Below, piece by piece: positions 14,920 through 60,467 of a stretch of 64,000 nucleotides of DNA (positions within the stretch are counted from its first letter, which is position 1; each line of letters starts with the position of its first letter). This stretch comes from Rugalucina vietnamica. Its lineage: Eukaryota; Mollusca; Bivalvia; Lucinida; Lucinidae. Location of the stretch: positions 27,256,488-27,320,487 of the forward strand of contig OZ024871.1 of the NCBI GenBank assembly GCA_964017185.1, in the 5' to 3' direction. The notes under the pieces were generated by a model. That model saw nothing but the letters and a program-made list of their open reading frames with translations, made no database searches and was not told the origin of the DNA. Position numbers and translations under genes: made by a program.

Positions 14920-16266
14920 GATAGTTCGTCTCTCACTAATGAGAAAGACCATCATTATTTCTTGAATAGTGCTGATGTGTGTTGGTGAGTTCTTTGATGG
15001 CTGACTAGGCCAATTCTGGCTCTAAACTGTCGGTTGCAAGTAGAGCAAGTCAATGTCATAGAGTCTGCTGGTGGCACATTTGTTTTGGCTTTGCGCTCTC
15101 TTCGCTTTCTTTCAGTTTCACAGATTCTCTTCTTTTCATAGAGAGCTGCTCCTTTGTTGATGAGACCTCGCCACTTTGATCGCTCCTGTGCAGTCTGTTC
15201 CCAGGACCCCATTGGTATTTCGAAAGCCTTCAGAGAGGCTTTGAGGGTGTCTTTGTTGCGTTTCTTCTGGCCACCTTGAGAGCGCTTTCCCTCCTGTAGT
15301 TCTCCATAGAAAACTTTCTTTGGAAGTCGCGCATCAGGCATTCTTATAACATGGCCAGTCCATCTTAGCTGTGCTAGCTTTAAGCATGCATGCATGCTTT
15401 GCATCCCTGCTTTCCTCAGGACCTCTGTGTCTGGAATCTTGTCCTGCCACTTGATTTTTAACAACTTTCTCAAACAGCTTAAGTGGAAATGGTTAAGTCT
15501 CTTTGCATGGCGTTGGTATACTGTCCAGGTCTCACATGCATACAAGAGGGTTGGCAGTACCACAGCCTTGTAGACTTTCAGCTTGGTGTCAAGCTTGATT
15601 CCATTTCGCTCCCAGACATTTGCACGGAGTCTTCCGAATGCCACACTAGCTTTTGCAATTCTGGCAGTGATCTCATCATCAATATGCACTGCTCTGGAGA
15701 GAGTGCTTCCCAGGTAGGTGAACTAGTCAACAACTTTCAGTTTTTGCCCATTCACAGTGATGGTTGGTTCATTATATGGTTTTCCGGGGGCTGGTTGGTG
15801 TACAACCTCTGTCTTTTTTGTGCTGATTGTGAGATCATAGTTATCACATGACTGTGAGACTTGATCCATGGCTCTTTGCATTTTTGCCTCTGTGTTGGCA
15901 TTCTTATCCATATCATCTGCATAGAGGAGCTCATCTAGCACATCAGTCTGGACCTTAGTTTTGGCTTGCAACCTTCTGAGGTTGAATATGTTGCCATCAA
16001 AACGGTACATGATTGGAAAACCAGTGTCACTGTCCTGAAAAGCATCCATAAGCATGGCAGAAAACATCATGCTGAACAGTGTTGGTGCCAGAACACAGCC
16101 TTGTTTGACCCCATTTGTTACTTCAAATGGTTCAGAGAACTCTCCATCATTCTGCACACGTGCCTGCATGCCATCATGAAACTGCCGCACCATAGCTATG
16201 AATCTGGGTGGACAGCCAAACTTGGCCATGATTTTCCAGAGTCCATCACGACTAACAGTGTCAAAA
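14920..16266 (-). mobile_element. 5'-truncated RTE-like LINE with 13-bp TSD
   Basis: GGTTTAATAGTCT occurs exactly at 14907-14919 and 16267-16279 and nowhere between. It marks a 13-bp target duplication around a minus-strand insertion of 1347 bp. The insertion starts inside RT motif A (FDTVSRDGLW) and ends after a 35-bp 3' UTR. The 5' truncation and TSD show insertion by target-primed reverse transcription. RTE-like assignment is from recall of similar animal LINE proteins, not from a search. Confidence 0.85.
14955..16266 (-). pseudogene. RTE-like reverse transcriptase C-terminal part with one stop
   Basis: Minus-strand frame of 437 codons with a single in-frame TAG at 15723-15725. Before the stop are motif A, VKQGCVLAPTLF and the catalytic LLYADDMD (YADD) box. 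After it come FTYLGSTL-type residues, the thumb (KLKVYKAVVLPTLLYACETW), RWTGHVIRMPDARLPK, a basic linker and a C-terminal C2H2 zinc-finger-like motif (CSTCNRQFRARIGLVSHQRT, with the final His at the usual spacing). The stop falls within VVD*FTYLG. No other lesion was seen, so the copy is young but dead. Confidence 0.85.
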
Positions 16267-34071: not shown

Positions 34072-34362
34072 CGAAGGCTTTTCAACAACCAAAAAGTCGA
34101 TTAAATCCACCTTATCCCGCTGAAGTTTCGTTGTTTTTTCCTCAAGGTTTTGGTGCGCTTTCGTAATACAAAATTTCATCAGAATAGATTAAGGCTGACC
34201 TGTGTATACCACATTATGTTGTGACGGCCGCAGGGACACAGGAACAAAAATCGAACTCCCATTAAAGTCAAGTTACTGTCATTATAAATTTCTAAAACTG
34301 TCGCTTAGAATCCCCTTCTCTAAACGTTTGCAGCGGAGGTCGATATCGCCCCTGCATCTGTG

Positions 34363-41943: not shown

Positions 41944-42154
41944 AGCCGCGTCATGAGAAAAACAGATTTTTGCCTATGCGAAAACAAAGGCGCAGATCAG
42001 CTGTGCAGTAACTGTGCGCTACTTGGATAGTTCAATCTCTCTTTTTGTTACATCTGAAATTTCAAGCTTCTAGACCTCTTCTGTGGCTGCACAGACCAGT
42101 GTGTGTCAGACCTGGTCAGAAACCCCTATGACCAGTTTTCTCTCATTACGGCTC
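41944..42154 (+). mobile_element. GAGCC-family MITE, copy 17
   Basis: Starts AGCCGCGTCATGAGAAAAAC 16 bp after the LINE-C TSD, and ends TTACGGCTC. TGTT flanks (41940-41943, 42156-42159) suggest a TSD with one base lost or gained. The centre is truncated after CAGCTGTGCAGTAACTG, so the palindrome is halved. Confidence 0.8.
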
Positions 42155-43704
42155 TTGTTAGCTATCCTGGAAATGCAATTTCTGAAGCATGTAATGCAAA
42201 CATCATATTACATGTTTGCTTTAATATCTCTGGAGTCTTGTCAATTATACTTGATAAATGATACAAAAAACAAAATATTGCTTTTACAATATTTCATGTT
42301 TCTAAAATACTTGAGAGATAATGACTTAAAGAGAAGAAGTCCAGTCATTTCAAGTTTAGAACTTTTGATTGCTCCAACTGAGAGTTTGGATGCAACTGCA
42401 AGTTGTTATGTCCACCCAACCGAAGGGTGGTGGGACTTTGTTTTGGTGCAGATCCAGTCAGCGTCTGTGTCGGCGACTCTGCGTGGCTTCTTTTTGCTGT
42501 GAGATGGTGGATTTTGACCAATCTTTCACAGAAACATTGTTTGGAGGAGTCCTAGAGTTGATTAGACTTTGGTGACCTTGACCTTATTTTAAATTAAAAA
42601 TGTTGAAATTAGCTTTTCTGATTCAATATCTTCTGAACATGTGGATGAATTCGGACCAAACTTACACAGAAACATTGTTGTGGGGAGACCTATATATAGC
42701 ATTTATTAGATTATGGGGACCTTGACCAAATTTTCAAGGTCACCAGCCCAAGAAAAATGTTCAAATTAGCTTTTCTGATGCGAATGTTTTGAACAAATGC
42801 CTGGTTTCAGACCAAACTTACACAGAAACAGATGGTAGGAGATCTAGAGTTGATAAGAGTTGAGGAGCCTTGACCTAATTTTCAAGGTCATAAGCCTATT
42901 AAAAATGTTGAAATTAGTTTTTATGATGCAACAGCTTCTGAATAAATGGATGGATTCTAACAAAACTTTCATGGAAATATTGTTAGGAGAAGACCTAGAC
43001 TTTAATGTTGATTAGATTTTGATGGCCATTAAAAGTGTTGAAATTAGCTTTTCTGATACGATATCTTCTGAACAACTGGATGGATTCTGATTAAACTTAC
43101 AGAGAAACATTTCTGTGAGTAGATCTACAGTTGATTAGATTTGGGTGACCTTGACCTAATGCCCAAGGTCACTAGCCCATGACAAAATATTCTAACTGGA
43201 TATCTTCTGAACCAATTGATGGATTCTGTCCAAACTTACACAGAAACATTGTTTGGAGGAGACCTAGAAATGGTGAGATTTGGGTGACCTTGATCTAATT
43301 TTCAAGGTCACCAGCCCATGAAAAATGATGAAATAAGCTTTTCTGACATGATATCTTCTGAACAAATGGATGGATTCTTTACAAACTTATAGAGCAACAT
43401 TGACCTAACGTCCAAGGTCACCAGCCCATGAAAAATGTTGAAATTACTATTTCCAATGCTTTATCTTCTAACTGATTGATTTATTTTGACCACACTTGTA
43501 CAGAAACATTGCTGAGAGAAACTTAGTGTTGATTAGACTTTGGTGACCTTGACCTACTTTTCGAGGTCAGTGCCCCTTAGAAACTGGAAAAGATAGTTTT
43601 CAGGTGCAATATCTTCTGAACCAGTGGATGCATTTTTATTATCAAACTTGCACAGAACATTGCTGGGAGGAGATTTAGTGTTCACTAAATGTTGGTGACC
43701 TTTA

Positions 43705-45533
43705 CACGGCCACCAATCCAGCTCTTTCGTAGCAAAATGCAATGATAATAAATTCATTTGCGGTACTTCCCACTATGCAGCTGTGGGGTTCGAAACGTGT
43801 AAGTGACTTCGTGTTCTCTTGTTTTATTATCAATTACTCCTTTCAAAAATCGGAGAATGACATGATGTGGGTAATTTATCTATAGCGTCTTTCATCTCCT
43901 GCCGATCTGCTAAAAACATAGCACATGGTTTGGAATCACTTTTGAGGTGAGTACAACACACACGTTTTTAGGTTGTATGCTAGATTTTCAACACAAACAT
44001 GCCGCATTACTTTGTTTTCCAACTTATGCAATGCGTCCATTTTATTTGGAAGATTTTATTTTGACTAATGATGAATATTTGTGACCATAAACGTCATGTG
44101 TATGCCTCTGATTTGAAAATAATCGATATGCTATGAAGCGGCGTGATAAGCGATGAAGAAAGGGGTCTAGCTATGAAGAAAACTTTTTATGCTTGGAGGT
44201 TTGTTGGTTGATTGGGGTATAACGTTCCACCAACAGCTAAGGTCATATGGAGACGGGACCTCGGTTTATAGTCCCATCCGACGGACTGGAGAAGCCCGGG
44301 ATCGAACCTGCGACCCCTGGTTTACAAGGTGAGAGACATAACCACTGCACCACGGAGGCTTCTTTTATGCTTGGAGGATGAGCAGTACAGTTGATTTTAC
44401 TATAACGAAATACGCTGATCAGCACCGTATCATGAAGAGGCGTATTTAATAGCATCCTCAGCTTCGACAGCAACTAAGCAAATCTGGTAATGTCTTTCTT
44501 GTTTTGAAAAAGCATTATTCTTCCTTTACAAGAACATATTTTGTCTTACAGTATGTATAAATGTATTGCATGTATTTTTTCGATATGTATGCTTTTATTT
44601 ATTTACTGTATATATGTAGTTCGCTTCTTATTGAACGAACGAAAAAGAGCTATATGCTTTACACAAAATGGTCAGTTACTTCTTGTACATGGAAATATCA
44701 GGGTTCATACAGTAACCAGCATGGCTACATTATAAAAAAAAAAAAATAAAAATAGTGCACCGGTCTCAGACTTAAAATCCAACAACTGATTGAATAACCC
44801 GATGTAAGCGCAAGAGTGATTGATAATGAGCTAGAAAAAGTGCAATGTGCAATGAATACTTACTTTTTCCATACTATTTCAAAACAACTATTTCAGCTTT
44901 TCTTAGTTGCCGAATAAACTAAGTAAGTAAGTAACTTCTTTATTTCATAGCTGAGGAGGCTATTAAACACGCCTCTTGACAATACCAGGCTTACCAGTGC
45001 ATATCATTATAGTACAATCAACTAGCTCATAGTATAACAAGTTTTCTTCATAGCTAGTCTCCTTTCTTCATCGCTTATCAAGCCGCTTCATAGCATATTG
45101 ATTATTTTCAAATCAGAGGCATGCAAATGACGTTTATGGTCACAAATCTTCATCATTAGTCAAAATAAGATCCTCCAAATAAAATGGACACATTGCATAA
45201 CTTGGAAAACGAAGTTATTCAGTGTGTTTGTGTTGAAAATCTAGCATACAACCTAAAAACGCGTGTGTTGCACTCACCTCAAAAGTGATTCCAAACCATG
45301 TGCTATGTTTTTAGCAGATCGGCAGGAAATGAAAGACGCTAGATAAATTACCCACATCATGTCATTCTCCGATTTTTGAAAGATGTCATAAAATTGATAA
45401 TTGATAATAAAACAAGAGAACATGAAGTCACTTTAATACACGTTTCGAACCCAGCAGCTGCATAGTGGGAAGTACCGCAAATGAATTTATTATCATTGTA
45501 TTTTTCTAAGAAAGAGCTGGACTGGTGGCCGTG
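43705..45533. mobile_element. 1.8-kb foldback element with 5-bp TSD
   Basis: Arms of about 490 bp (43705-44190 and 45040-45533) are near-perfect inverted complements, starting CACGGCCACCAATCCAGCTC. CTTTA is duplicated at both ends (43700-43704, 45534-45538). The loop (44190-45040) carries a SINE and an A-run, with no transposase. CAC termini with a 5-bp duplication are reminiscent of Transib, but the next bases do not match its usual consensus, so this is only a suggestion. Confidence 0.8.
44200..44365 (-). mobile_element. tRNA-derived SINE in the foldback loop
   Basis: Minus strand: CCGTGGTGCAGTGGTTATG (A-box region), GCAGGTTCGATCCCGGGC (B-box, near-perfect) about 40 bp later. The body reads GGACTATAAACCGAGGTCCC, then CCATATGACCTTAGCTGTTG. 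The best-preserved SINE head in the window. Confidence 0.8.
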
Positions 45534-45616
45534 CTTTACCTAATTTCAACTCAACTTGCATAGAAATATTGTTGGGAGAACAGTTGTTGGGACATAGTTT
45601 TCCTCAGAAAACACTG

Positions 45617-45888
45617 TTTTAATTTCTATAATAAATGGGAATAGACTGTTTGCAAAAAATGCCATCTAGAGGTTGTTTGTGGTCTTGTGTTTTCATATCT
45701 GTACAGTCAATAGTTTTATAAACTTTTTCAGAGCACTTTGGTTAAGAGCCATTCCATTTTGATTGCTGCATAACAACATGCTTAATCTAAGCCTTCCAAG
45801 TGTCCTTGTAGGAAAAACAGCTCAATACTGTTATCTGCATTTCCCTGTCTTTGTTTTTTACATAACCATAAACCTTGAAATACCATTT
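45617..45888. other. No recognisable feature
   Basis: Short AT-rich stretch between tandem-repeat element IV and GAGCC copy 18. Confidence 0.35.
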
Positions 45889-46097
45889 GAGCCTCATAAT
45901 GAGAAAAACAGATTTATGCCTTTGAAAACAAAGGCGCAGATCAGCTGTGCAGTAACTGCACAGCTGATCTACGCCTTTTTTTCACTACACAGATAGTATA
46001 ATCCCTCTTCTTCTTAAATCCGAAATTTCAAGCTTCTAGCCTTTTTTTGAGACTGTACAGGTCGGTTTGTGTCAAACCTGGTAGGAAAACTCGTCTC
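45889..46097 (+). mobile_element. GAGCC-family MITE, copy 18
   Basis: ATTT duplicated (45885-45888, 46098-46101). The palindrome is complete with core TGTGCAGTAACTGCACA. The right TIR is shortened (AGGAAAACTCGTCTC). Confidence 0.85.
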
Positions 46098-46259
46098 ATT
46101 TATTGATGTCTAAGATCAGGGGTTTTAAGCTTTGCCTGCATATTTAGTGGAATCTGATAATGAAATCTGACTTATTGAGATTGAGGAGCTGAATAATTCA
46201 TTACTGTCTTGCATCCTTCTACATGCCAAGTGGGAATACACAGGTTTCACATGAATCAA

Positions 46260-46482
46260 GAGAAGCGACGAGAAAAGTTTCCCACAAGGTCCGACACAAA
46301 CTGGCATGTATAGTCTCAGAAGCAGGATAGAAGCTTGAAATTTTGGATGTAAGAAGAAGAGGGATTGTACTATCCATGGAGCAAAAACAAAGATGCAGAT
46401 CAGCTGTGCAGTTTTATACTGCACTGCTGATCTGCATCTTTGTTTTCGCATATGCAAAAGCCTATTTACTCATGATGGTATT
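46260..46482 (-). mobile_element. GAGCC-family MITE, copy 19
   Basis: Minus copy with GGTCCGACACAAACTGGC, AAGCTTGAAATTTTGGATGT and the palindrome around TGTGCAGTTTTATACTGCAC, whose centre carries a small insertion that keeps it symmetric. Outer TIRs degraded. Confidence 0.75.
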
Positions 46483-46885
46483 CTAGAGAAATTCAATCTT
46501 GGTTCAGTAATATGGTCTTCGAAAATCTGAAAATTTGCATATTGAACTCTTGAAAAATTTTATTGATGATGAATTACAATATGACAGCCTCATGCAAATT
46601 AGACATTGAATAAGGCTGATGAATCTTTTAGCAGGTTTAGGGGTGGGGGTGGGGGAGGTTGAAAAACAGATAAAGTGCTATCTGGAATCACTTAGAATGG
46701 GTATTGTGGTAAAGCTTCTTCTTGTTTGATAACCAAGGGCCAATGGATCAACCCAAGACATTTCTGTCAACAGTATTTGAAAAGGTCCCATGACAATTCT
46801 TCAAGACATACTGTTCACAAGGACATATGATTGATTGCTTGACGCACATGGTTTCTAGCTAAGGTCATTTTGAGGCACTCAGTTA
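46483..46885. other. No recognisable feature
   Basis: AT-rich with a GGGTGGGGGTGGGGG tract near 46640. No coding signal. Confidence 0.35.
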
Positions 46886-46975
46886 CATCAGGAAAACATG
46901 TCCGTGAAATGTGTACCCCCTCAAACCCCACTTTTATATAGCAAAACTGGGGTATGAAGGGGTATACCTGTTTTT

Positions 46976-48190
46976 ATCGCACCTGCTTATAGCAGGGTGC
47001 GATATAGGAGTTCAAATTTCCGTCCGTTCGTCGTTCGTGCGTGCGTTCATCCGTCCGTCAACATTTACATCGAAGTTTAGTTTTCTCGACATCAGTGATA
47101 GTTGCGAGTCTGAAACCTTGCATAGTAATTGTCCTTGACATACCCTTCAAGCGCACAACTTGACCCGCTGACCTTGACCTATATTTCACGGTCTACTGAC
47201 TTGGAAATTTTTTACGTCGAAGTTTGGTTTTCTCAACATCAGTGATAGTTGTGAGGGTGAAAACTTGCATAGTAATTTTCCTTGACATACCCTTCAAGCA
47301 CGCACCTTGACCTGCTGACCTTGACCTATATTTCACGGTCTACTGACTTTGAAATTTTTTACGTCAAAGTTTGGTTTTATCGACATCAGTGATAGCTGTG
47401 AGGGTGAAAACTTGCATAGTAATTGTCCTTGACATACCCTTCAAGCACGCACCTTGACCCGCTGACCATGACCTACCGTATTCGTTCTAATTAGCGCACA
47501 TGCACCAATAAGCGCACACCCTAGTCATTTCCAAAAATTGTCTGCATAAGCGCACACTGATCAATTAACATATTGGTATCTTCTACTAATTTTACACATA
47601 AATTCCATATTAACCGCATTAAAACGTAACCTTAGATGATAAAACACTATTATTCAAAGATTTGAACACTTAAATGACATCATCATTGGTATATTCGATA
47701 TGGAAAGCTCAGCAGTTTATGTTCTGTTTTCGTTCGTAGTGTGCGCTTATTAGAACGATATTTTGTTACCTTAACTTTAAATTATTTTGAAAATTTGAGT
47801 GCACTGTGCGCTAATTAGAACGATGCGGTATATTTCACAGTCTACTGACTTTGAAATTTTTTATGTCGAAGTTTGGTTTTCTTGACATCAGTGATAGCTG
47901 GGAGTGTGAAACCTTGCATAGTAATTGTCCTTGGCATACCCTTCAAGCACACACCTTGACCCGCTGACCTTGACCTATATTTTATGGTCCATTGACTTTG
48001 TTAATTTTTACGTCAAAGTTTTTTTTTCTGCATCGGTGATAGCTGAGAGTGTGAAACCTTGCATAGTATATGTATGTCCTTCACATACTCTTCAGAACAC
48101 ACCTTAACCTGGTGCCCTCGACCTATATTTCACGTTTTTAGTTACTTTGCCAGATGCAGGTGCGATATCGACCTCCGCGGAGTTCTTGTT
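46976..48190 (+). repeat. Hairpin-led tandem-repeat element I (period about 147 bp)
   Basis: Starts ATCGCACCTGCTTATAGCAG, then GGTGCGAT (hairpin). A GTCC/GTTC/GTGC tract follows (47020-47060), then five units with CATCAGTGATAG, CTTGCATAGTAATTGTCCTT and ACCTTGACCYGCTGACCTTG spaced 145-149 bp. It ends GCAGGTGCGATATCGACCTC, CGCGGAGTTCTTG: a complement of the leading stem plus a small palindrome. One unit is split by a 353-bp TIR element. No coding. Confidence 0.8.
47476..47828. mobile_element. 353-bp TA-flanked TIR element inside the array
   Basis: TIR CCGTATTCGTTCTAATTAGC, then GCAC, is mirrored by GTGCGCTAATTAGAACGATG, then CGG. TA is duplicated (47474-47475, 47829-47830), and removing element plus one TA restores GACCTATATTTCAC of the tandem unit. 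Interior words (AATAAGCGCACA, GTGCGCTTATTAGAACGATA) repeat the TIR motif. Tc1/mariner-type target; no transposase. Confidence 0.85.
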
Positions 48191-48348
48191 CTTATTTTTG
48201 CTCCGAAACATAGATTGTGGGTACCCACAATTAGATTGTGGTTATGTTTTGAGTAAAAATAAGAAAAATATAAAAAATGTTCTACTGAAAATTTTCGTTT
48301 TTTACAACTTTAAAAATCTCTATATTGCATAGGCGTGTTTTCGTAATG

Positions 48349-49005
48349 TTCACTCTAGTGCTCATAGGCAAGCATCCCAGAGGCAGATTACCAGTACTCA
48401 GTGCACATTTCCTTCACCACTAACTGATAAAACCCATTGCTCTATGGCAATTGACTTAGACTTTGTTGTGCCCAAGAGACCTACTTATTTTAATGCTTAG
48501 ACGTAAATTAGGCTGAAATTTTGGGAATGAAGACAGCAATAATTATGAAAAAAAATAAGATTCAGTTTACAGGCTTATCCTGCATTCCATTATAGATGAG
48601 TTATTGTTACATCATATGTAGAGTAAAAAAAAATCTTGCCTCTGTCAGCTCATAAATCATGCATACAGTTATGCAGTAAACAGATTTTTCATTAATTGCA
48701 TGGTACAGTTAAAGCCTGTTTACCTAGGAGACAAACGCCAAGAGTTTAGAAATGGAGGCGGAGCTCCCAAAATCATTGTTTGTTTTAGTGGCAATTTATC
48801 TGTCAGCATCAGTCTGATACCAGTGGGTCTGGTGTTTGCATTATCCTTTCCAGTACAGTTATATCTGATCTGCCCAAAATTTTAATTGCTTGCAAATGTT
48901 CCACACTCACCATGTAGTAGAAAGTTTCAAGAATCTTTATATCTCATTGTAACACAGTGTAAAGCAGAAAAAGAAAGATGTGAAAAATGCTGCTGAAGAA
49001 AGAAA
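48349..49005. other. No recognisable feature
   Basis: Unique-looking AT-rich sequence. The open frame at 48700-48885 has no domain. Confidence 0.4.

Positions 49006-49047
<42 letters not shown>
49006..49047. repeat. (TTA)n microsatellite
   Basis: About 14 ATT units followed by a T-run. Confidence 0.95.
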
Positions 49048-49116
49048 TTTTTTTTTTGAATGACCGATATTTAATTGTGTTTATGATGGAATTTAAAAAT
49101 AAGATACATATATGTA

Positions 49117-49893
49117 GGCTTTTTACATATGCAAAACATAAACACTAGAGCATAGCTGATCAGGGCGTTGTCTGCTTTTCAAAGGTAGTCCAACCTCCCC
49201 CCCCCCCCCCCTACCATTTTTCTTCAAACTAACGATACAATGTTTTGTTATTGTACTAGTCAGCTTGTGTCAGAACTGGTCAGAAACACCACAAGACAAG
49301 TCATTTTGTGATGCAACTTTAAACACCAAAAGAAACCTCTAACGCATACTTTTTTGTTTTGGCATTTTCTTGAAAACTAGGTATTCAATTTACAAACAAT
49401 TTTGGAGTGTTTTTCAGTGTGCGTGTAATTTTTTACAGAAATCAGACAAAAAAAATTAAATTATTGCAGTTCAAAGTGAAGTCTTCAAAAATCGAAAGTC
49501 ACAAATTAGCCGGCTTTTTACATATGCAAAACATAAACACTAGAGCATAGCTGATCAGGGTGTTGTCTGCTTTTCAAAGGTAGTCCAACCTCCCCCCCCC
49601 CCCCTACCATTTTTCTTCAAACTAACGATACAATGTTTTGTTATTGTACTAGTCAGCTTGTGTCAGAACTGGTCAGAAACACCACAAGACAAGTCTTTTT
49701 GTGATGCAACTTTAAACACCAAAGGAAACCTCTAACGCATACGTTTTTGTTTTGGCATTTTCTTGAAAACTAGGTATTCGATTTACAAACAATTTTGGAG
49801 TGTTTTTCAGTGTGCGTGTAATTTTTTACAGAAAATTAAATTATTGCAGTTCAAAGTGAAGTCTTCAAAAATCGAAAGTCACAAATTAGCCGG
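49117..49893 (+). repeat. Tandem duplication of about 390 bp carrying GAGCC-MITE remnants (copies 20a, 20b)
   Basis: GGCTTTTTACATATGCAAAA ... CACAAATTAGCCG occurs at 49117-49512 and 49512-49893. The copies differ only by a C-run length change, a 13-bp deletion (ATCAGACAAAAAA region) and a few substitutions, so the duplication is young. Each copy contains a diverged GAGCC-type fragment (GCATAGCTGATCAGGGYGTT, GTCAGCTTGTGTCAGAACTG) and a C-run. Confidence 0.85.
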
Positions 49894-50757
49894 CATTTCT
49901 GTTAAAAAATCAATACGGAATCATCATTCCAAACAAAATAAAACACATTTGTCAATGTTACTACATTTTTAGAGACATGCATTTGTACAATAGACCATGC
50001 CTTGTGCACATGTAAGGTATGTGCACAAAGAGAAGTTGCTAAAGGATTCCCAAGAATTGTTCAAATGTACACTTTTTCTGGAATACAGAACATAAAAGAT
50101 ATATTTGGTGTGGTAAACCCAGTCCTCAACCAGTCGCATGCTATACAAGTTCCACAGTAGCTGTTGACTTTTGTATTAGCTCACCTGAGCCGAAGACTCA
50201 CATGTGAGCTTATAGGATAGATAACTGGCGTCCGTCCATCGTTGTCCGTCCGTCATCCACCATTTTTATGATATTCTCCGAAACCGCTGGGCCAATCAAA
50301 GCCAAATTTCATGTGAAGCATCTATAGGAAGTGTGTGCGTGTGGGGTGGGGTGCGGGTGGGTGGGGGGGGGGGGGGCAATGTGTACATATATAATCCAGG
50401 TCACATTACCAGGATGGCTGTCATGCCCATATGTGGTAAAACCCTTTCAAAAATCTTCTACCGCTTTCAACCAAACTTAATGGCTTGTAGCATCAGTCTT
50501 GCGTACTACATATTTGTACATGTGATGTCCTTGACCTATTTTACGACAAGGTCAAAACTGGCCGCCTATGCATTTGAATGGGGAAAACTGTTAAAAGGTC
50601 ACTTAAAGGGAAAGTCTTGCATTGGACAGAATATTTATGATTCTGAAAAATGGACCCACCACCCACGGCAATATATACAGTGTATGTATATTACAATTAT
50701 ATTCAAACATCTCTTCTGAAACCGCTTGACCAAAGTCAAATAAATATGAAACATCTA

Positions 50758-51800
50758 CACTGAAACAAAGTTATAAGAGGCCACCTCATATTTTGTCTTC
50801 TAGTTCAGAAAGTAAAATACGATCAAATAAAATTCATGATCATATGAATAAACCAATGTCTAACAGTGGCTCTGTGAGTTTCTGCATTCCAAAATGCGTG
50901 ATACTTCTCACACAGACGAAGCATGTGTAAAGGTACCCTATTTCAAAAAGTCACACTTTATTAACATCAAATTAAATGTCATATTATGACGTTGTGTTTT
51001 TACATTTTAATTTATTTGAAAGTGCTACTGACTGCCATGATGCAAGATAAAATTAAGTCAAAAGTGTTGCTGCAATAAGAATCTTCGTTTCTGTTTTGCA
51101 CATGCAAGAAGACAACAACCTGAATAACAGGAATTCAGCTTTTGTATGCAATTTGCATACCAACTTTGTTCTTCTCCAGTTGCGTTATTATCAGCAGCAC
51201 GGCATTGAAATTTTCAGCGATTATTTAGGTCAAATGCTAGACTCTGATAAACTTTGAAAATTAAAAAAATCGTCCACAAATTTTGTTATTTTGTTCGTTA
51301 AAAATTGGCATTGAAACCGGAAGTGTGCGGCAGCCTTGACATGTTGGTCCTCGAAAATGGTCAAAAACAGTTCAGTCGAATTATATCTCTCATTTCCAGG
51401 CCTCATCAAGTGAATTTAACAGGGGTCAACATGTTTAAGAGGCACATTTATGAATTTTTCAAAAAATCTCAAAATTGGCGATTTTTAAAAATGCATAAAA
51501 ATTCTACCAGTAGAGAAAATTCGAATGTTTGATGTTTTTCCGAGCCGTAACGACCCCTTTGATGACACCCGTTCCTAATTTCAATAAATGGTGTGCTGTA
51601 TCCAATTTTTTATTTAAAAACATTGATTTTTGCATTTTTACTCAAAAAACGCCTTTAGTAAAAGAAAATTATTTCTTAACACTTTGGAACTTTACTTACT
51701 TGAAAGACACGTCTTTTGGCAAAAAATTGTGCAATTTTGAACTTGGCTTAGAAACAAAAAATGAGTTTAAAAGTGGCCTCTTTATAACTTTGTTTCAGTG
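50758..51800. mobile_element. 1043-bp TA-flanked TIR element inside element II
   Basis: TIR CACTGAAACAAAGTTATAAG, AGGCCAC is mirrored by GTGGCCTCTTTATAACTTTG, TTTCAGTG. TA flanks both sides (50756-50757, 51801-51802), and removal restores CATCTATAGGAAG as seen uninterrupted near 50320. The interior has several overlapping short frames (51305-51834) but no recognisable transposase. Confidence 0.8.
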
Positions 51801-51923
51801 TATAGGAAGGGGGAACCAATGTGTACATGAATAGTCAAGGTCATATTACCAATATGGCTGCCATGCCCGTATATGGTTAAAACACTTCTAAAATCTTCTC
51901 CGGAAACAGTGGACTGATTTCTC

Positions 51924-52440
51924 CATCGTCGGGCAGCTTACTCTATCTGTGAGTCCTGGTTTTTGATTCATCAGGATGTTTATCATGATTTATTTGTTTG
52001 TTCTTGATGATTCATTGACTAGTTAGAGATTCACCACGAGGACCGAAGAACTAACTAAATGTTGTGAACCACTGCAGAAGCTGAGGGTGAGGTTAGGTAC
52101 CTGTAAAACCGGTTTAAGCCCGCCAGTAACTTTGTGTTACTGATCGTTCCAAGTCGATACTTCTGTAGTGGTTCTTTTTGTTTTATGTCTTGGTGTTTAA
52201 AATTTTTTGTGCTGTTGGCGCCTTATGTATGTTTTCATATTTTTAGTTAAGTTAAGGTAACTGAGTGGCCACCTATTGGGAAAATAGCTGCTCATTCGGC
52301 TTACGATATGTTTCATGGTATGGGTACCTGATTGTTAGTTTGGTTTTTTCCCACCTCGGTTTTTGGAGTGGGAATCTTTTTCTGATTGCGCCTTTTCCTG
52401 ATCTTTGCCTACTTGTACCTTTTTTCAGTGAAGCTTAGCA
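51924..52440. repeat. Unidentified insertion in element II
   Basis: This stretch interrupts the tandem unit. It contains TTGGCGCC, the 53-bp block shared with 26174-26226 (at 52368-52420), and AGGTTAGGTACCTGTAAAAC. It could be a fragment of an LTR or LINE 3' end, but no coding domain or clean boundary is visible. Confidence 0.4.
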
Positions 52441-52591
52441 TGTAGCATTAGGCACTACTAAAGTAATACAGTGTGTAACTTGGCCTATTTTACAACAAGA
52501 TCAACATAGGCTTCCTGTGCAAGTGAAAGGGAAAAATGTTAAAATGTCATTTGAAGCAACAAAACTGAAGATTCATGATTCTGAAAAAAAA

Positions 52592-52612
52592 ACGCCCAGG
52601 GGTTAGTCTGCC

Positions 52613-52659
<47 letters not shown>

Positions 52660-52680
52660 GCCCAGGTGTTAGTCTGCCCT
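52592..52680. repeat. Poly(A) tract between 23-bp direct repeats
   Basis: ACGCCCAGGKGTTAGTCTGC followed by CCT occurs at 52592-52614 and 52658-52680 with one difference, on either side of 43 A residues. A shorter A-run precedes the first copy. It looks like a target duplication around a pure poly(A) insert, or a tandem duplication of an A-run plus flank. Confidence 0.85.
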
Positions 52681-52844
52681 TGCAGAGCGGTTTTATAATG
52701 TCTATGTCCATAGTTTTCAAATGTTTTATTTGTGTTCATACCGGATCTAAGGTGAGCTTACAGGACCATTGGTCCTTTTTTTCTTTTTCTTTTTAAATTC
52801 AGTTTTACATTCCTTTCAAGATTATTTTAGATCATATGAGATGG

Positions 52845-53012
52845 GTCAAACAGTAGGTGGGCGAAAACAGAAGAACCCCAAGAACCTGGCACACTGGCAA
52901 GCAGAACTTGGCTTGTATCACAAATGCCCAGTGTGGTTCTCGAACCCACACCAGACACAGTGGTGAGTGAGAAACAGTGCTCTTAACCGCTCGGCCACGG
53001 AGCTGTCCATTG
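52845..53012 (-). mobile_element. tRNA-derived SINE
   Basis: Minus strand: CTCCGTGGCCGAGCGGTTAA (A-box region, Leu/Ser-like), GTGGGTTCGAGAACCACAC (B-box region) about 50 bp later, then a short body. The tail near 52845 is not well defined. It follows tandem-repeat element II by about 65 bp. Confidence 0.7.
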
Positions 53013-53427
53013 CTCCTTTGATATATCCTCTTGTGCCAATATAACTAATAAAATGCTTTCTTGTAAACCAGTGTTCTGATGTGCAGGCCACTCAGAACAT
53101 TGACTTGTTACTCATGAGATCATAAGTAGTCTAATCTCTGGATGGGGCTGATTTACTGAAAGTGATTATACATGTATCTGACGTGATACTGGGCAGATAA
53201 TGAATGTTTTTGTTTAATTGAACATGGTTGTTTTTGTTTTCTTATTTATGAATATTCAGTTTTATATTACATGTAAATCATTATTTTCTTTATAACAACA
53301 TTTATGTTTACTATTTGCATGGATTTCCGATTTCTTTCACAGTCCAAAGGTGCATTTTTATTGGCATACAGCGGGTTTTAGGAGATAAACCTACCTTATG
53401 GTTATGTCATGCAGTACTTAATGCATA

Positions 53428-53475
<48 letters not shown>

Positions 53476-53884
53476 CATTAAACATTAAAATAACACGCAT
53501 TTAGAAAAAAATAACCCTCCTGATCATCAAATGTTATGTACAGTGTGACTAAGGCACTGTTTCTCAATGGGCATTCGTTTTGGGTTTCATTGTATAAACA
53601 ATTAGGTTCCTTGAAAATTGATAAAATCTGCTAAAGTAATCAGCTGCTGGTTTGGGGCGGAGCAAATGTCAGGTCGAGGAAATTTATTTTACTAGCAACT
53701 AGTAAGGCTTTTGCCGTGAGTCCACTAGGTATGTTCCCAGAAATATGAAAACAAGATGTAGGGTAACCAGTCATTATCGGCTGAAATGATCACCTTCGTT
53801 TTCTTTGCTCAGTATGAACAATCAAACCTTAGACATCCATTGTGGGTATTCAGTCCTGGATGTTGGACAAGAAAAAGCCCTTGT
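53013..53884. other. Unique-looking stretch with (GT)n
   Basis: No gene or repeat recognised apart from the GT microsatellite. Confidence 0.4.
53430..53473. repeat. (GT)n microsatellite
   Basis: About 22 uninterrupted GT dinucleotides. Confidence 0.95.
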
Positions 53885-54153
53885 CATTACGAAAACACGC
53901 CCATGCAATATACAGAGATTTTTTAAGCTGTAAAAATTGAAAATTTTCGGTAGAATTTTTTCAATATTTTTCTTATTTTTGCTCAAAACATAGATTGTGG
54001 GTACACGTTAGAACCGCCTCGCTGAGGCGGTTCTAACGAGTACCCACAATCTATGTTTTTGAGCAATAATAGGTATACCCCTGCATACCCCAGTTTTACT
54101 ATATAAAAGTGGGGTTTAAAGGGGTAAGTATTGCACGGACATGTTTTCCTGAT
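53885..54153 (-). mobile_element. CATCAG-family element, copy 5 (intact palindrome)
   Basis: Starts CATTACGAAAACACGCCCAT and ends CATGTTTTCCTGATG. The central palindrome is nearly perfect: AGATTGTGGGTACACGTTAG, AACCGCCTCGCTGAGGCGG and the complement, extended by ATTTTTGCTCAAAACAT against ATGTTTTTGAGCAATAAT. Confidence 0.85.
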
Positions 54154-54770
54154 GGACACAGCTCGTATAGATCATTTGCCTGAGAAATTCTACTGAAAAG
54201 AGAATTTAATTACTTTTATGCTTTGCTGTGAATTTATCAGTTTTGTATGAAGCACTTTGCATGTAATAAAGAATACTTTGTGCAAAAGAGCTTTGAACCA
54301 TGGGGGATTCTACTGTGTGATCATTCAGGTTTGTTGCATAAAACATGCAATGACATTAAAGCATGCAATTGCATTAAACATGCAATCATGATCAAGCATT
54401 TACTGAGCCGCCGCATAAAAAATATATTTATATATATATCAAAGGCTCAGTTGTTATGCTAAAAAAGTGTTGGCACATATTATACTTAGTTTATTAGTTT
54501 ATTTTTCCTTGTCCTAATGCTTGGCAAATAATAAAAGGTACAGATAAGCAAGTACTAAGTCCCCCGGATGCCTTGCCCTTATGCTAAGCAAATAAAAAAA
54601 ATCACAATCTAGTACATGTGTCTCTCTACATAAACCTATAGAATAGCCCCTTTATTTTATCAAAAAGCCTAGACACAGTCCAATGGGCCTCCACATGGAA
54701 ATAATGGAGCCAAGGAAAACTCTGCAAATACTGTTGTGTCCACTCTAAAATCTTCCTTTGCTAAAAATAT
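54154..54770. other. Upstream intron sequence of the SOCS-box exon
   Basis: AT-rich, no feature apart from a short GCATGCAAT-type repeat near 54345-54395. Probably intronic given the acceptor at 55017-55018. Confidence 0.4.
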
Positions 54771-54998
54771 GAGCTGCCTCATGAGAAAACCAACAATCTG
54801 CATATGCGAAAACAAAGGCACAGATCAGCTTCGCGGTAACCGCGAAGATCAGCACCTTTGTTTTCGCTACACGGATAGTACAAGTTCTCTTCTTCATAAA
54901 TCCAAAATTTCAAGCTTCTATCCTGCTTCTATGACTGCCCAGGCCGGTTTGTGTCAGAACTGTTTGGAAACCACGTTGGTTTTCCCATGAGGTGGCTC
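54771..54998 (+). mobile_element. GAGCC-family MITE, copy 21, at the splice acceptor
   Basis: Complete copy with ATAT duplicated (54767-54770, 54999-55002). The core TTCGCGGTAACCGCGAA is perfect, but the second arm has lost four bases (GATCAGCACC). It ends 20 bp before the exon at 55019, so the region that normally holds the branch point is MITE sequence. Confidence 0.9.
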
Positions 54999-55018
54999 AT
55001 ATGTTCTTATTTTTTCAG

Positions 55019-56121
55019 AAGCGGCTGGTTTCAGCGAGACAATCATGTGCTGTGAGAATAGCGTGTTCAAGGACTGCAGTCCAGCATTCTGTACGAGTCG
55101 ACAGAGAATCATCAACATACCCAAACCCTACAGAATATTCCGCTTCCGACGGAGACGAAAATTCACAAAAATGGCTGAACATTTTGAGTACAAGGTTGTT
55201 CCCGCACAGATGTCATGTATTCAGAACTTTCATGTTAAAAGTGTGCTATGTTATCACAATAACACCGTCATTTTACATCTCTTGAGAAACATGACGACTC
55301 AGTTCGGGATAGTAGATCTGTCACAAGACAAGTTTCTCGGAGTATTTGGAGTGCAATATGCTAGTTTCATCAATGAGGTGCTGAGAGGACAAGTCAGCCC
55401 CGACGGCTCACTTTGCCTTATCAAAATACCCATTCTTCATCCCGGAGTCAACCATATTGTGTACAAGTTTCAGTTATATAGCCTTAAAACTAAAGATTTG
55501 CTGAGCGAATATACACTGCCTTATATCAATACAGAGTTTGCATTTGATCCCAGATTCAATTCCTCTCGCGTAGCTGCCACAAGCTTCTTGCCAGGTAACG
55601 ACAATGCCCTGAGTTTGATTAAGATTCGAACTTGGGAGGAGATTGCCACAAACCCACGCCTTAACGACATGCGGCCTAGTCAGAACCCGGAACTAAAGGA
55701 CATCACCTATTCTAGAGATGGGTTCCTCATTTTTGCCATCATGATCACCGGAGGTTGTCACTGTCGGGAAAGGAAGTCGCGTAGAAACCAGCCGGCCGAC
55801 GTCAGTATTTACGTGCTAAGTAGCGAGACCGCAGAAACATTGCACTGTATTCAATATCATCGCTACACATGTGGGCTACATCTGTGTCCTATCAACTACC
55901 TGCCGGTGTTCTCGCACTGTGGTAGTCGGATGGCGATAGTTCTGAACGACATGGAGAGTCCACTAGATCATGTTCAGATTTACAAACTTCCGACTGCTAT
56001 GAGTCTGCAGAATCGCTGTCGCATCAGAATTCTACAGCAATACCCAGAGGAATATATTGAACAGCTGCCCTTGCCAAAAAGAATGATTCAGTACCTGAAA
56101 TTTCACCCAGAATATGATTAA
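55019..56121 (+). CDS. Terminal exon of a SOCS-box protein (Elongin BC/Cul5 receptor)
   Basis: The acceptor is TGTTCTTATTTTTTCAG ending at 55018. The exon begins with two bases completing a codon and stays open to TAA at 56119-56121 (366 codons; first internal Met at 55045). From that Met, residues 320-330 are the BC box (SLQNRCRIRIL, matching SLxxxCxxxI) and 341-344 the Cul5 box LPLP, followed by KRMIQYLKF: a complete SOCS box. Upstream, beta-propeller-like patches (RGQVSPDGSLCLIKIP near 107-122, VFSHCGSRMAIVLND near 288-302) suggest a WD40-like substrate domain, but no canonical WD repeats. A basic FRFRRRRKF stretch is near residue 32. The exact orthologue is not recognised. Codon use and an unbroken frame indicate a real host gene. 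Confidence 0.85.
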
Positions 56122-56170
56122 ACTATAAGATTTTAGAAGCAAAGAAATTTCTGATCAATGCTTTAGCTCA

Positions 56171-56395
56171 TATAAGCCTGGCATCCTTTTTGTGGGACAT
56201 AGGCTACCGTATAGCCCCAGATGTGACGCCGCAGAACGCGGTGTCCCATCTGGGGGCTTTTCTGTTTGCCTTCAGGAATTTCATCGTAAAATGGAATAAA
56301 AATTCAAAATCACCCCCAATGTCCCTCAAAATGAAAGTGGACTCACCCAAATGATAATGATGGGAGAATCCATTTGTCAAATATGGGTTAAAGAA
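56171..56395. repeat. AAGCCTGGCATCC dispersed repeat, copy 2
   Basis: ATAAGCCTGGCATCCTTTTT, TAGCCCCAGATG / CATCTGGGGGC hairpin, GGAATAAAAATTCAAAATCA and a terminal AAATATGGGTTAA, matching copy 1 at 17500-17716. It begins about 50 bp after the SOCS-box stop codon. Confidence 0.75.
56295..56300 (+). promoter_or_regulatory. Candidate polyadenylation signal AATAAA
   Basis: The first AATAAA downstream of the SOCS-box stop, 174 nt away. It lies inside the dispersed repeat at 56171-56395, so the transcript may end in repeat sequence. No closer canonical signal was seen. Confidence 0.35.
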
Positions 56396-56466
56396 AAGAA
56401 AAAAACTAGAAGACAAACGAAAGATCATAAGACATGATAAAAGGAGTATTTGATTATAATATATAT

Positions 56467-56590
56467 GATTGATGATAATTTTTGTGGGTTCTCTATAGAA
56501 TCACCTTACCAAGGGGATTCTACATAGGTCTTTGCCAAGGTGATTCTTATGGGCACCCACAACATGATGCTTGTGCCTTTATGAAAAAAT
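56467..56590. repeat. CATCAG-related palindrome variant
   Basis: TTTTGTGGGTTCTCTATAGA, ATCACCTTACCAAGG and the complement CCAAGGTGATTCTTATGGG, CACCCACAA form a long hairpin with the layout of the CATCAG centre but different arm sequence. It lies 10 bp from copy 6. Confidence 0.55.
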
Positions 56591-56600
56591 AAGCAACATT

Positions 56601-56878
56601 CATTACGAAAACTTGCCCATGCAGTATATGGAAATTTTGTTTGCTTGTAAAAATGAAAATTTTGAGTTGAAAAAATTGATATTTTTCTTATTTTTGCTCA
56701 AACCATAGATTGTGGGTACACGTTAGAACCGCCTCGGCGAGGAGTTTCTAACGAGTACCCACAATCTATGTTTTGGAGCAAAAATAAGAAAAATAGGTAT
56801 ACCCCTGCATACCCCAGTTTTACTATATAAAAGTTGGGTATAAGGGGGTATTTATTTCACGGACTTGTTTTCCTGATG
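56601..56878 (-). mobile_element. CATCAG-family element, copy 6
   Basis: Starts CATTACGAAAACTTGCCCAT and ends CTTGTTTTCCTGATG. The central palindrome is intact except for GGAGTTTCTAAC in one arm. The hairpin near the right end (ACCCCTGCATACCCCAG) is present. Confidence 0.85.
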
Positions 56879-57162
56879 ACACCAGAATTATCATCAATTA
56901 TCCTTATGTACTCCCTTCATCGGGTCTTCTGTGCTCATTTGGATTCTATGCTATTATTTTGTCTGAACAAAGAAAAAAAAAGGGTAATGCCTCTTCTAGG
57001 GAAACTACTTTTGGCCTAAAATTATTTGTCAAATGAGTTTTTTATTTCCATCTTAAGGTGTCGTCACACATAAGCAAAAATCTCTTGACACAGACTTGTA
57101 TGGTGATTCATATGAGGCACCAGCAATATTTCATGTAGTAGAATTCAGAAATATATGTATGA

Positions 57163-57724
57163 TGCATCAGCCAAGTGTAACTACGGCCTCACCTACTGGG
57201 AAGGGTTGGGGATAGCTGGGCTATAGTGCAAAGCAATTTCTTATTGTCCCTTTCACCAGGAAAACATGTCCATGAAATGAATACCCCCTTAAACCCCACT
57301 TTTATATAGAAAAACTTGGGTATGCAGGGGTATACCTATTTTTCTTATTTTTGGTCCAAAGCATAGATTGTGGGTACTCGTTACGAGGCGGTTCTAATGT
57401 GTACCCACGATCTATGTTTTGGGCAAAAATAAGAAAAATATCAACTTTTTCAGCTGAAAATTTTCAATTTTTATAGCTCAAAAATCTCTGTTTATTGCAT
57501 GGGCATGTTTTCATAATGGGCAGTGCAGGTGAAATAATTGGGCTTTGACATAAGGATCCTTAAGTAAGATTTTCTATTACAAAGGGAAGAGCAAAGAGCA
57601 TAGTTTTGACCTCCAGTTTGTCCCTTGAGGATTAGGCTTATAGCAGGGCTCTAAAAATTTTAAAGTCATCATACCTGCTATGCCCTATAGGTGGAACGAC
57701 TTTGGTTACAAATGACTGGTGCGC
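57163..57724. mobile_element. TGCACCAG-family MITE, copy 2, split by a CATCAG element
   Basis: The left part starts TGCATCAGCCAAGTGTAACT. The right part resumes with GGCAGTGCAGGTGAAAT and ends GGTTACAAATGACTGGTGC. Compared with copy 1 (30144-30449), the sequence is interrupted exactly where GTCTCGGCAGTGC is continuous there. Confidence 0.8.
57254..57518 (+). mobile_element. CATCAG-family element, copy 7, nested
   Basis: 265 bp, starting CACCAGGAAAACATGTCCAT and ending GCATGTTTTCATAATG. The central palindrome has lost part of one arm (CTCGTTACGAGGCGGTTC). Nesting in a known MITE fixes both boundaries. No convincing target duplication is seen. Confidence 0.85.
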
Positions 57725-57832
57725 TAGTTATTCCAACATTTACATAATAAGATAGTGTCCACCTGGGTTCTACTGTGATTGGCATTAAAGTGTGAATTCT
57801 AAGTCATGTCCTCTTGTAGTATGGTATTACAT

Positions 57833-58065
57833 GAGCCTGTGCGTGAGAAAGTCAACAATTTTGGTTTTGACCAGTCCGACACAAACCTGGCTGTACAGTC
57901 ATAGAAGATGGCTAGAGGTTGGAAATTTTGGATATAGAAAGTAGAGGAAATGTACTATCTGTGTAGTGAAAACAAAGGTGCTGATCAGCCTCGCAGTTAC
58001 TGCGAGGCTGATCTGCACCTTTGTTTTCGCCTATGCAGATTGTCGATTTTACCATGCGATGGCTC
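57833..58065 (-). mobile_element. GAGCC-family MITE, copy 22
   Basis: ACAT duplicated (57829-57832, 58066-58069). Core CTCGCAGTTACTGCGAG, perfectly self-complementary but distinct from other subtypes; the outer arms AAAGGTGC...GCACCTTT have also changed together. Confidence 0.9.
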
Positions 58066-58109
58066 ACATTTGAGCACTGCTGTGACAAATACAATGATTC
58101 AGGCATAGC

Positions 58110-58265
58110 ATCAGAAGAAGACATGATACACATTGCAAGAAAATTGAAAATTTTCAGTTGAAAGTATTTTGTTTTTGCTCCAAACATTGATTGTTGATAC
58201 ACATTAGAGCTGACTTGCTGAGGGGTTCTAACGAGTTTCTACAATCTAAGTTTTGATACATTTTG
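58110..58265 (-). mobile_element. CATCAG-family remnant, copy 8
   Basis: Diverged partial copy: GAAAATTTTCAGTTGAAAG, TTTTTGCTCCAAACATTGAT, then TACACATTAGAG / GGTTCTAACGAG arms. Ends not preserved. Confidence 0.55.
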
Positions 58266-58469
58266 CATCAAAACAGATAAACGTCGTTAGAATATGTAGT
58301 CAATATTTGAACAATGTATGCATGTTTTTGCTCAATGTGTCTCAAATCAACCAAAAACTCGACAGAACCCTATGTTCTATTCTAGATTGTGAGACTTTTG
58401 AAATGAAGCTGCTTTTCTTGGTGGGGCACCCATAAACTCTGCTGATACCATTGAATTTGTCACAGATTT

Positions 58470-58695
58470 GAGCCACCACATGGGAAAAACAACAATCTGC
58501 ATAGGCGAAAACAAAGGAGCAGATCTGCGACTGCGAAGCTGATCAGCGCCTTTGTTTTCGCTACTCGAATAGTACAATTCCTCTTCTACTTAAATTCGAA
58601 ATTTCAAGCTTCTAGCTCTTTTCTGTGCTTGTACAAGTCGGTTTGCGTCGGACCTGTTCGGAAACCACATTGTTGGTTTTCCCACGAGGTGGCTC
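58470..58695 (+). mobile_element. GAGCC-family MITE, copy 23
   Basis: ATTT duplicated (58466-58469, 58696-58699). The first arm is shortened around AGCAGATCTGCGACTGCGAA. The second arm and right half are near-consensus. Confidence 0.9.
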
Positions 58696-58699
58696 ATTT

Positions 58700-59103
58700 G
58701 TTATTCATCAATGTTCATTGCATTATCTTAGGTCATGTTTCAATTTTTTGTTTTCCATTTAGCTTTTTGTCTTCCTATATAATATTACATGTATAATTTC
58801 TATTGTTCTTTACATTTTTGAATTTCATAAGCAGTCTTGAGTGAACTTGAAAGTACACTGTTATTATTTTGTGTAATGGATGCAATTTGTAACTTGTAGT
58901 AAGAATGTCAAAGAAAAATGTCATTTCAACGACTGCTTTAAGTGATTTTAATAATCATTGTACAAGACACTGGGTGCTTCCTTTGTCCCGATATAAAAAT
59001 GTTTTGTTTGATTTTTACTATAGGTCCCGATAGGATTTGGTTTTGTTTGATTCAGGTATCGGATTTTTTTTCTACAATAATTTCTAGAATTTGGTCAATG
59101 ATT
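58700..59103. other. No recognisable feature
   Basis: AT-rich stretch without gene or repeat signal. A sequence near 58967 (CACTGGGTGCTTCCTTTG) is complementary to 60543-60563 (GAACCAAGGAAGCACCCAGT), so tandem-repeat element III lies between short inverted copies. Confidence 0.45.
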
Positions 59104-59162
59104 ATGTCTCCCCCCGACAGGGTCGGGAGACATATTGTTTTTCCCCGTGCGTTTGTCCGTCC

Positions 59163-59209
<47 letters not shown>

Positions 59210-60467
59210 ACAAATGGTGTCCTCTCTATAACTTGAAAATCGTTAAAGATTTTTCAATGAAACTTGGTACATTTGTATACCACGACGAGACGATGTGTCA
59301 TGCACAAGAACCATAACTCTAGCTTGAGTATTTTTGGAGTTATTTCCCTTTGATTATTTTCGATACAATTTCGTGTCCGCTGTATAAATTGAAAACCGTT
59401 AAAGATTTTTCAATGAAACTTGGTACACTTGTAGACCACGACGAGACGATGTGTCATACACAAGAACCATAACTCTGGCTTGAGTATGTTTGGAGTTATT
59501 TCCCTTTGATTATTTTCGATACAATTTCGTGTCCGCTGTATAACTTGAAAACCGTTTAAGATTTTTCAATAAAACTTGGTACACTTATTGAGCATGATCA
59601 GACGATGTGTCATGCACAAGAACCATAACTCTGGCTTGAGTATTTTATGAGTTATTTCCCTTTGATTATTTTCCATACAATTTCGTGTCCGCTTTATAAC
59701 TAGAGTTATTTCAGTGAAACTTGGTACACTTATAAAGCACAATGAGATTACGTGTCATGCTAAAGAACCATAACTCTTGCTTGCATATCTTTGGAGTAAT
59801 TTCCCTTTGATTATTTTCCGTACAATTTCGTGTCCACCCTATAACTTGAAAACCGTAAGAGAAATTTCAGTGAAACTTGGTACACTTATAAAGCATGATG
59901 AGACGATGTGTCATGCACAAGAATTATAACTCTTGCTTTCATATCTTTGGAGTTATTTCCCTTTGATTATTTTTCCATACAATTTCATGTCCACTCTATA
60001 ACTTGAAAACCATAAGAAATATTTCAATGAAACTTGGTACACTTATAAAGCACGATGAGATGATGTGTCATGCTAAAGAACCATAACTCTTGCTTGCATA
60101 TCTTTGGAGTTATTTCCCTTTGATTATTTTTCATTCAATTTCGTGTCTGCTCTTTAACTCAAAAACCATTAGAGATTTCTCAATGAAACATGGTACACTT
60201 ATAAAGCATGGTGCACAAGAATCATTACTCTTGCTTTCATATCTTTGGAGTTATTTCCCTTTGATTATTTTCCAAACACTTTCGTGCCCCCTCTATAACT
60301 TGAAAAACTTGAAAACCGTAAGAGATATTTCAATGAAACTTGGTACACTTATAAAACAGAATGACAGGATATGTGATGCACAAGAACTATAACTCTTGCT
60401 TGCATATTTTGGACATGCACGTAGAAAGGGGGGAGACGTCAGTTTTCACATAGAAAACAAATTCTAG
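59104..60467 (+). repeat. Hairpin-led tandem-repeat element III (period about 155 bp)
   Basis: Starts ATGTCTCCCCCCGACAGGGT, CGGGAGACAT (hairpin). Then come GTCCGTCCGTC, (TGTC)n to 59204, a CGTC end, and about eight units with TATAACTTGAAAACCGT, TGAAACTTGGTACACTTATA, GATGTGTCATGCACAAGAAC and GAGTTATTTCCCTTTGATTA. It ends GGGGGGAGACGTCAGTTTTC, ACATAGAAAAC, ATTCTAG|T. The CTAG then T end, hairpin and tetranucleotide/core-repeat structure resemble bivalve Helitron-like (pearl-type) elements. No Rep/helicase coding. Confidence 0.85.
59159..59204. repeat. (CTGT)n tetranucleotide microsatellite
   Basis: About ten CTGT units flanked by GTCC units, between the leading hairpin and the first core repeat of element III. 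Confidence 0.9.

Follow-up and report, generated by a model that had tools for sequence, protein, structure and literature searches.

Four tandem-repeat elements of the bivalve Rugalucina vietnamica as probable HINEs, one family of which shares its ends with a Rep/helicase element

Four tandem-repeat elements stand within 18 kb of one another in a 64,000-nucleotide stretch of the Rugalucina vietnamica genome (C3:27256488-27320487 of 1.09 Gb; hereafter the window), beginning at window positions 42408, 46976, 50178 and 59104 and named here I to IV. All four are most probably (about 0.92) HINEs, that is, non-coding, tandem-repeat-carrying derivatives of Helentrons which are copied in trans by a Rep (HUH)/PIF1-helicase protein. 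Family III has its two ends, its microsatellite and its core repeat in common with a Rep/helicase element of the same genome, a link that is new here; the HINE plan itself is already known, and the four families are additions to a known type. A sequence-only reading of the window had described each element as a 5' hairpin, GTCY-like words, core repeats, a copy of the hairpin stem near the 3' end and a 3' palindrome, and this description holds for all four. The paired end stems that it took for an added rule are already on record, being the subterminal inverted repeat (subTIR) and complementary inverted repeat (IR) of published HINEs (PMC4067079, PMC7492417).

The published layout consists of a 5' subTIR with its complementary IR, a GTCY microsatellite, core repeats, a 3' subTIR, a palindrome and a TT target (PMC4067079, PMC7492417). 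In all four family consensuses subTIRs link both ends (those of the window copy of I are decayed), an IR complementary to the 5' subTIR forms the 5' hairpin, and a short palindrome follows the 3' subTIR; a microsatellite and central tandem repeats lie between the ends. Insertion is into TT with no clear target-site duplication (TSD), the left flank being TT in 20/20 copies of II, 19/20 of III, 10/10 of I and 35/36 rows of IV. When the window was scanned with exact 7-nt words for the combination of 5' hairpin, GTCY words, 3' stem copy and 3' palindrome, two units (III and IV) were returned, and none of 40 dinucleotide shuffles gave any. This strict scan misses II, whose palindrome stem is just 5, and I, whose stem is decayed, so the in-window statistic covers two of the four; the genome copies were therefore taken as the real test, and they settled all four.

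Genome-wide, exact 3' termini number 677 for the consensus of I (329 + 348), 1571 for II (785 + 786) and 1533 for the subTIR plus palindrome of IV (770 + 763), and the reversed control gave 0 for each of the three. For III, 40 of the 4824 first-look candidates of a 5' query were scored, a figure which is not a copy count. The ends of the genome copies coincide with the hairpins in every family, as the sequence-only reading would have it, and plain satellite growth is not seen, though the core copy number of IV varies. The precise Helitron ends that it had proposed to look for (5' TC, 3' CTRR, between A and T) were not recovered; the 5' ends are AT (I, II and IV) or AG (III) after TT, and the 3' ends are AATT in I, CTTG in II, CTGG in III and CTAG in IV.

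Target sites of IV were read in a flank table of 36 rows representing 35 distinct places (loci L001 and L021 both stand for the window copy), 14 of 50 loci having been left out as both ends were not found within the locus. The one left flank other than TT (L036) is a one-base shift within a C run. Right flanks are TT in 31 rows, TA in 3 and TC in 2, and are biased in one copy set, as the query included seven flank bases. Empty sites were found for three copies, which lie inside a family III/Helentron core array (L004), a repeat also present at window 52141-52333 (L014) and a repeat also present at window 56256-56391 (L019); joining the flanks gives 2-3 nt more than the unfilled version has, and the excess falls in a T run (a T and A run for L019). 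These data are compatible with a TT target, and published work leaves the same choice between a duplicated TT and Ts of the element (PMC4067079).

The partner of family III is a Helentron-like element of 13,511 bp at C10:49503524-49517034. It begins TTTTT|AGCTCACCTGAGCC...GGTGAGCTTATAG, followed by GTCC repeats and then by 5.3 copies of a 455-bp repeat. Its 5' end and core are colinear with the window copy of III, at 68% identity over 666 bp counted from base one of either element and up to 85% in the core repeat. The 3' end is set by comparison of the C10 copy with a second copy on C1, both with 2521-aa open frames: the two agree at 98.7% as far as CTCAGGTGAGCGTTTACAGGACCAATGGTCCTCTGG and differ beyond it, and CTCAGGTGAGCGTTTACAGGACCAATGGTCCTCTGG is the family III 3' terminus with one base changed. 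A profile search of the genome for Helitron_like_N, in which 150 of 409 candidates were scored and at least 150 places lay above the cut-off, placed this domain at C10:49510354 in the 2521-aa frame; some 2 kb beyond it an open frame carries a PIF1 helicase, Rep and PIF1 putatively forming one protein. A Herpes_teg_N (tegument deubiquitinase-like) domain is found upstream in the C1 copy (L166:661-2601), and a related Rep locus (L079) additionally has DUF6570.

Exact termini of this autonomous type number 124 in the genome, and the 100 listed were compared with the Reps. For 39 of them a scored Rep stands upstream on the same strand, no more than 20 kb away and at spacings of 6-12.5 kb, compared to a mean of 0.18 and a maximum of 3 under random placement; 32 of the 39 spacings fall into two bands (6143-6201 and 6636-6668), which amount to one spacing of about 6.7 kb on two strands. 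One further Rep/terminus pair within 20 kb has a different arrangement. Autonomous Rep-helicase relatives sharing the ends, which the sequence-only reading had proposed to look for, were found for III and, among the matches listed, not for I, II or IV. Helentron ends were also sought inside Rep loci of 3.4-3.6 kb and were not found there, and no Rep was found in six of the seven window open reading frames (ORFs) of at least 130 aa, the seventh (42083-42502) lying outside the scan.

A single rolling-circle mechanism for all four families is the best reading of these results, because of the exact ends, the TT target, the HINE layout and, for family III, a Rep/helicase element that shares its ends; the sequence-only proposal of one replication mechanism is partly upheld on these grounds, without its canonical Helitron ends. 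By analogy with published Helentrons, Rep would nick at the 5' hairpin, in which subTIR and complementary repeat would act as the start signal, and the helicase would peel off one strand; copying would end at a stop signal made up of the 3' subTIR and palindrome, after which the strand would be joined at TT. The protein of the C10-type element probably mobilises family III, and I, II and IV may each be served by Helentrons of their own. As to the core array, it is possible, if doubtful, that it is a working part of the autonomous Helentron between 5' start and gene rather than cargo (e.g., a promoter, or an array for loading Rep or a host factor), kept by the short copies as a copying aid; the transposon would thus seed satellite-like DNA genome-wide.

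Same-family neighbours within 3 kb have the same orientation in 12 of 12 cases (II 8, IV 2, I 2) and the opposite one in none, and one of 20 left flanks of II (L110) holds an exact head-to-tail junction in which a II end, TT and a II start follow one another. Head-to-tail junctions were nevertheless dropped as proof of rolling-circle copying, as L110 is the one clear case and the eight close II pairs contain none.

Several results weigh against the assignment to HINEs copied in this way. Among the eight close II pairs there is no direct end-to-end junction: two share one identical spacer, a local tandem duplication, one has its 3' end joined to II core, and five have no element start in the stretch fetched. 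An IV array of period 659 likewise joins 3' ends to its own core. As the close pairs other than L110 trace to local duplication or to a 3' end set on core, head-to-tail order lends rolling-circle copying weak support. The 2-nt excess at IV empty sites fits either a TT duplication or Ts of the element's own. Of the autonomous-type termini listed, 61 of 100 have no scored Rep upstream (with 150 of 409 Rep candidates scored), and the C-terminal endonuclease that defines Helentrons is not among the domains read, the C-terminus of the ORF lying outside the stretch covered. For the other families the comparison of termini with Reps covered the first 100 places per family, mostly on contig C1, by exact words; among the matches listed, linkage was found for 0/17 Reps for I, 0/11 for IV and 1/12 for II, the last at 11.1 kb, which is not the family III spacing, and no constant upstream distance of a Rep emerged in any of the three. 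Linkage of I, II and IV to Reps through exact 3' termini is therefore nothing above chance among these matches, and since the lists are short and C1-heavy and the words exact, the missing masters are weak evidence of absence.

Four other explanations were considered. The elements could be derivatives of Helitron2 or of a proto-Helentron, with the same asymmetric terminal repeats and an autonomous protein without endonuclease; Rep and PIF1 domains were found, the protein C-terminus lies outside the stretch read, and asymmetric terminal inverted repeats, with a palindrome at either end, are also a trait of Helitron2 (PMC4067079). This is unlikely, as Herpes_teg_N lies upstream in the same element and such domains occur in endonuclease-bearing Helitrons, those of molluscs included (PMC9741609). 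Derivation from canonical Helitrons is very improbable. The CTAG of IV and the CTGG of III agree with CTRR, however the CTTG of II and the AATT of I violate it, the 5' ends are AT or AG and never TC, the left flank is TT instead of an insertion between A and T, and subTIRs are present; the 5' terminus, together with the insertion site, already decides against this explanation.

Miniature inverted-repeat transposable elements (MITEs) or foldback elements, mobilised by a cut-and-paste transposase, would account for short inverted repeats that connect both ends, and elements of this kind were formerly classed as MITEs (PMC4067079). The elements keep a fixed orientation, and their ends are asymmetric, with a hairpin at the 5' end and a palindrome outside the subTIR at the 3' end; the match of family III is to a Rep/helicase element rather than to a transposase, although no search aimed at a transposase element with these ends was made. 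Together these points make transposase-driven movement hard to credit. Satellite arrays expanding in place, for which the differing core copy number of IV (copies of 893-1663 bp) and the local tandem duplications could be cited, have next to no likelihood; copies are dispersed over many contigs with precise unique ends and empty sites, and on these points the satellite explanation failed.

In comparing the families with one another, I and IV are similar at both termini, with none of 1000 shuffles matching the score at either end, and II and III are at most weakly alike (34/1000 shuffles reach the score at the 5' end and 242/1000 at the 3' end); the termini of the remaining pairs are not alike. 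The cores of I and IV gave no match in the core comparison, and the two families are a single terminal type with two different cores. Two terminal types at the least, and perhaps three, thus underlie the shared design. The description of the elements as unrelated in sequence accordingly fails for the termini of I and IV, is at most weakly contradicted by II and III, and stands for the other pairs. Core units of about 145-155 bp, longer in II, had been suggested; the unit is 139-148 bp in I, 147 bp in II and 156 bp in IV, and the long unit is that of III (455 bp in its relative). The word TGACCTTGACC, proposed for the cores, occurs three times each in I and II and is absent from III and IV. Pearl and related bivalve elements, which we take to combine a microsatellite with core repeats, are similar by description alone. 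The idea that the inner 5' arm repeats the 3' subTIR region directly over more than the stem was considered and dropped: likeness beyond the stem is reached by 0.0034 of shuffles for the four families jointly, and cross-family controls score equally high (12 for the IV 5' end against the I 3' end; 8-12 for own pairs).

The four window copies, with their terminal features and microsatellites, all lie on the plus strand, and I, II and III hold nested inverted-repeat insertions, to which no strand is assigned. Element I (42408..45624), delimited by genome copies, is an old HINE with TT on its left. Its 5' hairpin of subTIR and IR (42408..42436) is decayed in the window copy and was read from the window and the copies together; a GTC-rich, microsatellite-like stretch (42455..42475; GTCGGC words in copies) follows, and the 3' subTIR GGGACATAG with the palindrome GTTTTC-CTCA-GAAAAC spans 45589..45612. 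The nested insertion (43705..45533) has inverted repeats of about 500 bp (90%). Copies are 67-74% alike across the matched 5' region and give the consensus ATGTCCCCC...GGGGGACAT; the start ATGTCCCCCC is preceded by TT in all ten copies, and the 3' end is TTTTAATT in each of the three, of seven stretches fetched, that reach the terminus.

Element II (46976..48188) carries 147-bp core repeats between a 5' hairpin ATCGCACC...GGGTGCGAT (46976..47003; start after TT in 20/20 fetched copies) with a GTCC/GTTC microsatellite (47020..47059) and a 3' end (48159..48188) formed by the subTIR GGTGCGAT, the palindrome CTCCGCGGAG and CTTG; in one copy (L103) CTTG is followed by TT. The short element nested in it (47474..47830) has 33-bp inverted repeats and TA flanks. 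A decayed fragment resembling the II 3' end lies at window 34333-34360 on the minus strand.

Element III (50178 to about 52780) has an eroded right end, nested insertions and a core array so broken up that no array was called. Its 5' hairpin AGCTCACCTGAGCC...GTGAGCT (50178..50210) has the identical start to that of the C10 element and precedes a GTCC microsatellite (50227..50254); the 3' subTIR GGTGAGC and palindrome GGACCATTGGTCC are at 52751..52775. Nested in it are an element with inverted repeats of about 55 bp and TA at its borders (50756..51802) and a dispersed repeat (51920..52422) that shows 96% similarity to part of L080 and holds an empty site for the L014 copy of IV. The start AGCTCACC follows TT in 19 of 20 copies; five of the 20 have the window flank, and the remaining 15 are all TT. 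Copies L081-L085 and L158 have the flank of the window copy through a larger duplication and are not independent; the larger repeat containing III, with the window left flank, is seen at C13:15650833, C1:38412904, C1:38405281, C11:20765056 and C10:10010387. After the palindrome GGACCATTGGTCC, 10/20 copies read T[CT]TGG; the palindrome itself is doubled in three of 20 (L140, L141 and L156).

Element IV (59104..60467) has 156-bp core repeats, a 5' hairpin ATGTCTCCCCCC...GGGAGACAT (59104..59133), a GTCT microsatellite (59154..59209) and a 3' end (60429..60467) made up of the subTIR GGGGGAGAC, the palindrome GTTTTC-ACATA-GAAAAC and CTAG. Its copies start with ATGTCTCCCCCC after TT and end in CTAG; in the copy alignment L009 and L020 have no 5' end, and L009, L010 and L020 no clean 3' end. 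Three IV 3' termini lie exactly 659 bp apart (L180/L181; C1:2576384-2577730), and at both junctions, which were read, a 3' terminus stands directly on IV core.

Elsewhere in the window, ten 31-nt hairpins of the form GATCAGCT-n15-AGCTGATC are at 9422, 20011, 24306, 27529, 32244, 35240, 45939, 60849, 61256 and 62216; the inner stem varies among copies, in most of them by matched changes on both arms, and the hairpins belong to a palindromic repeat that is dispersed and has AATTTCAAGCTTCTAG words close by. Of four ORFs at 2469-3938, 15723-16229, 39498-41579 and 55045-56121, three are of the reverse-transcriptase type and one has a SOCS box.

With the family III link it becomes testable how such repeats spread and whether the core array acts in copying, and the presence of four families within 18 kb, for three of which the exact 3' termini number 677-1571 per family, also indicates the extent of the genome built by this mechanism. 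The oyster study that defined bivalve tandem-repeat HINEs could relate none of them to an autonomous Helentron (PMC7492417), and an oyster genome paper reports that autonomous elements were not found (PMC7992393); in the open PMC literature (Repbase being outside the search) we found no autonomous Helentron tied to a HINE of the bivalve tandem-repeat type. The Cg_HINEs of the Pacific oyster resemble the present families in the 5' subTIR and IR, the GTCY/GTCC microsatellite, the 3' subTIR and 3' palindrome, the central repeats of 140-180 bp and the T-rich target with no clear TSD, and one terminal type with different cores has been described among them, as for I and IV here (PMC7492417). They differ in that no autonomous element could be related to them, whereas III here shares its two ends, microsatellite and core with such an element, and in the 455-bp core unit that family III has in its autonomous element (PMC7492417). 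Helentrons with tegument-like deubiquitinase domains likewise combine tegument-like, Rep and helicase domains (PMC9741609), the tegument-like domain here coming from the C1 copy and by domain match alone. The HINE/DINE-1 elements of mite, mosquito and Drosophila share with the present families the subTIRs, IR, microsatellite, 3' palindrome, TT target and end-sharing autonomous partners; their sequences are different, and the 455-bp tandem repeat inside the autonomous element, just past its 5' end, sets the bivalve system apart from them (PMC4067079).

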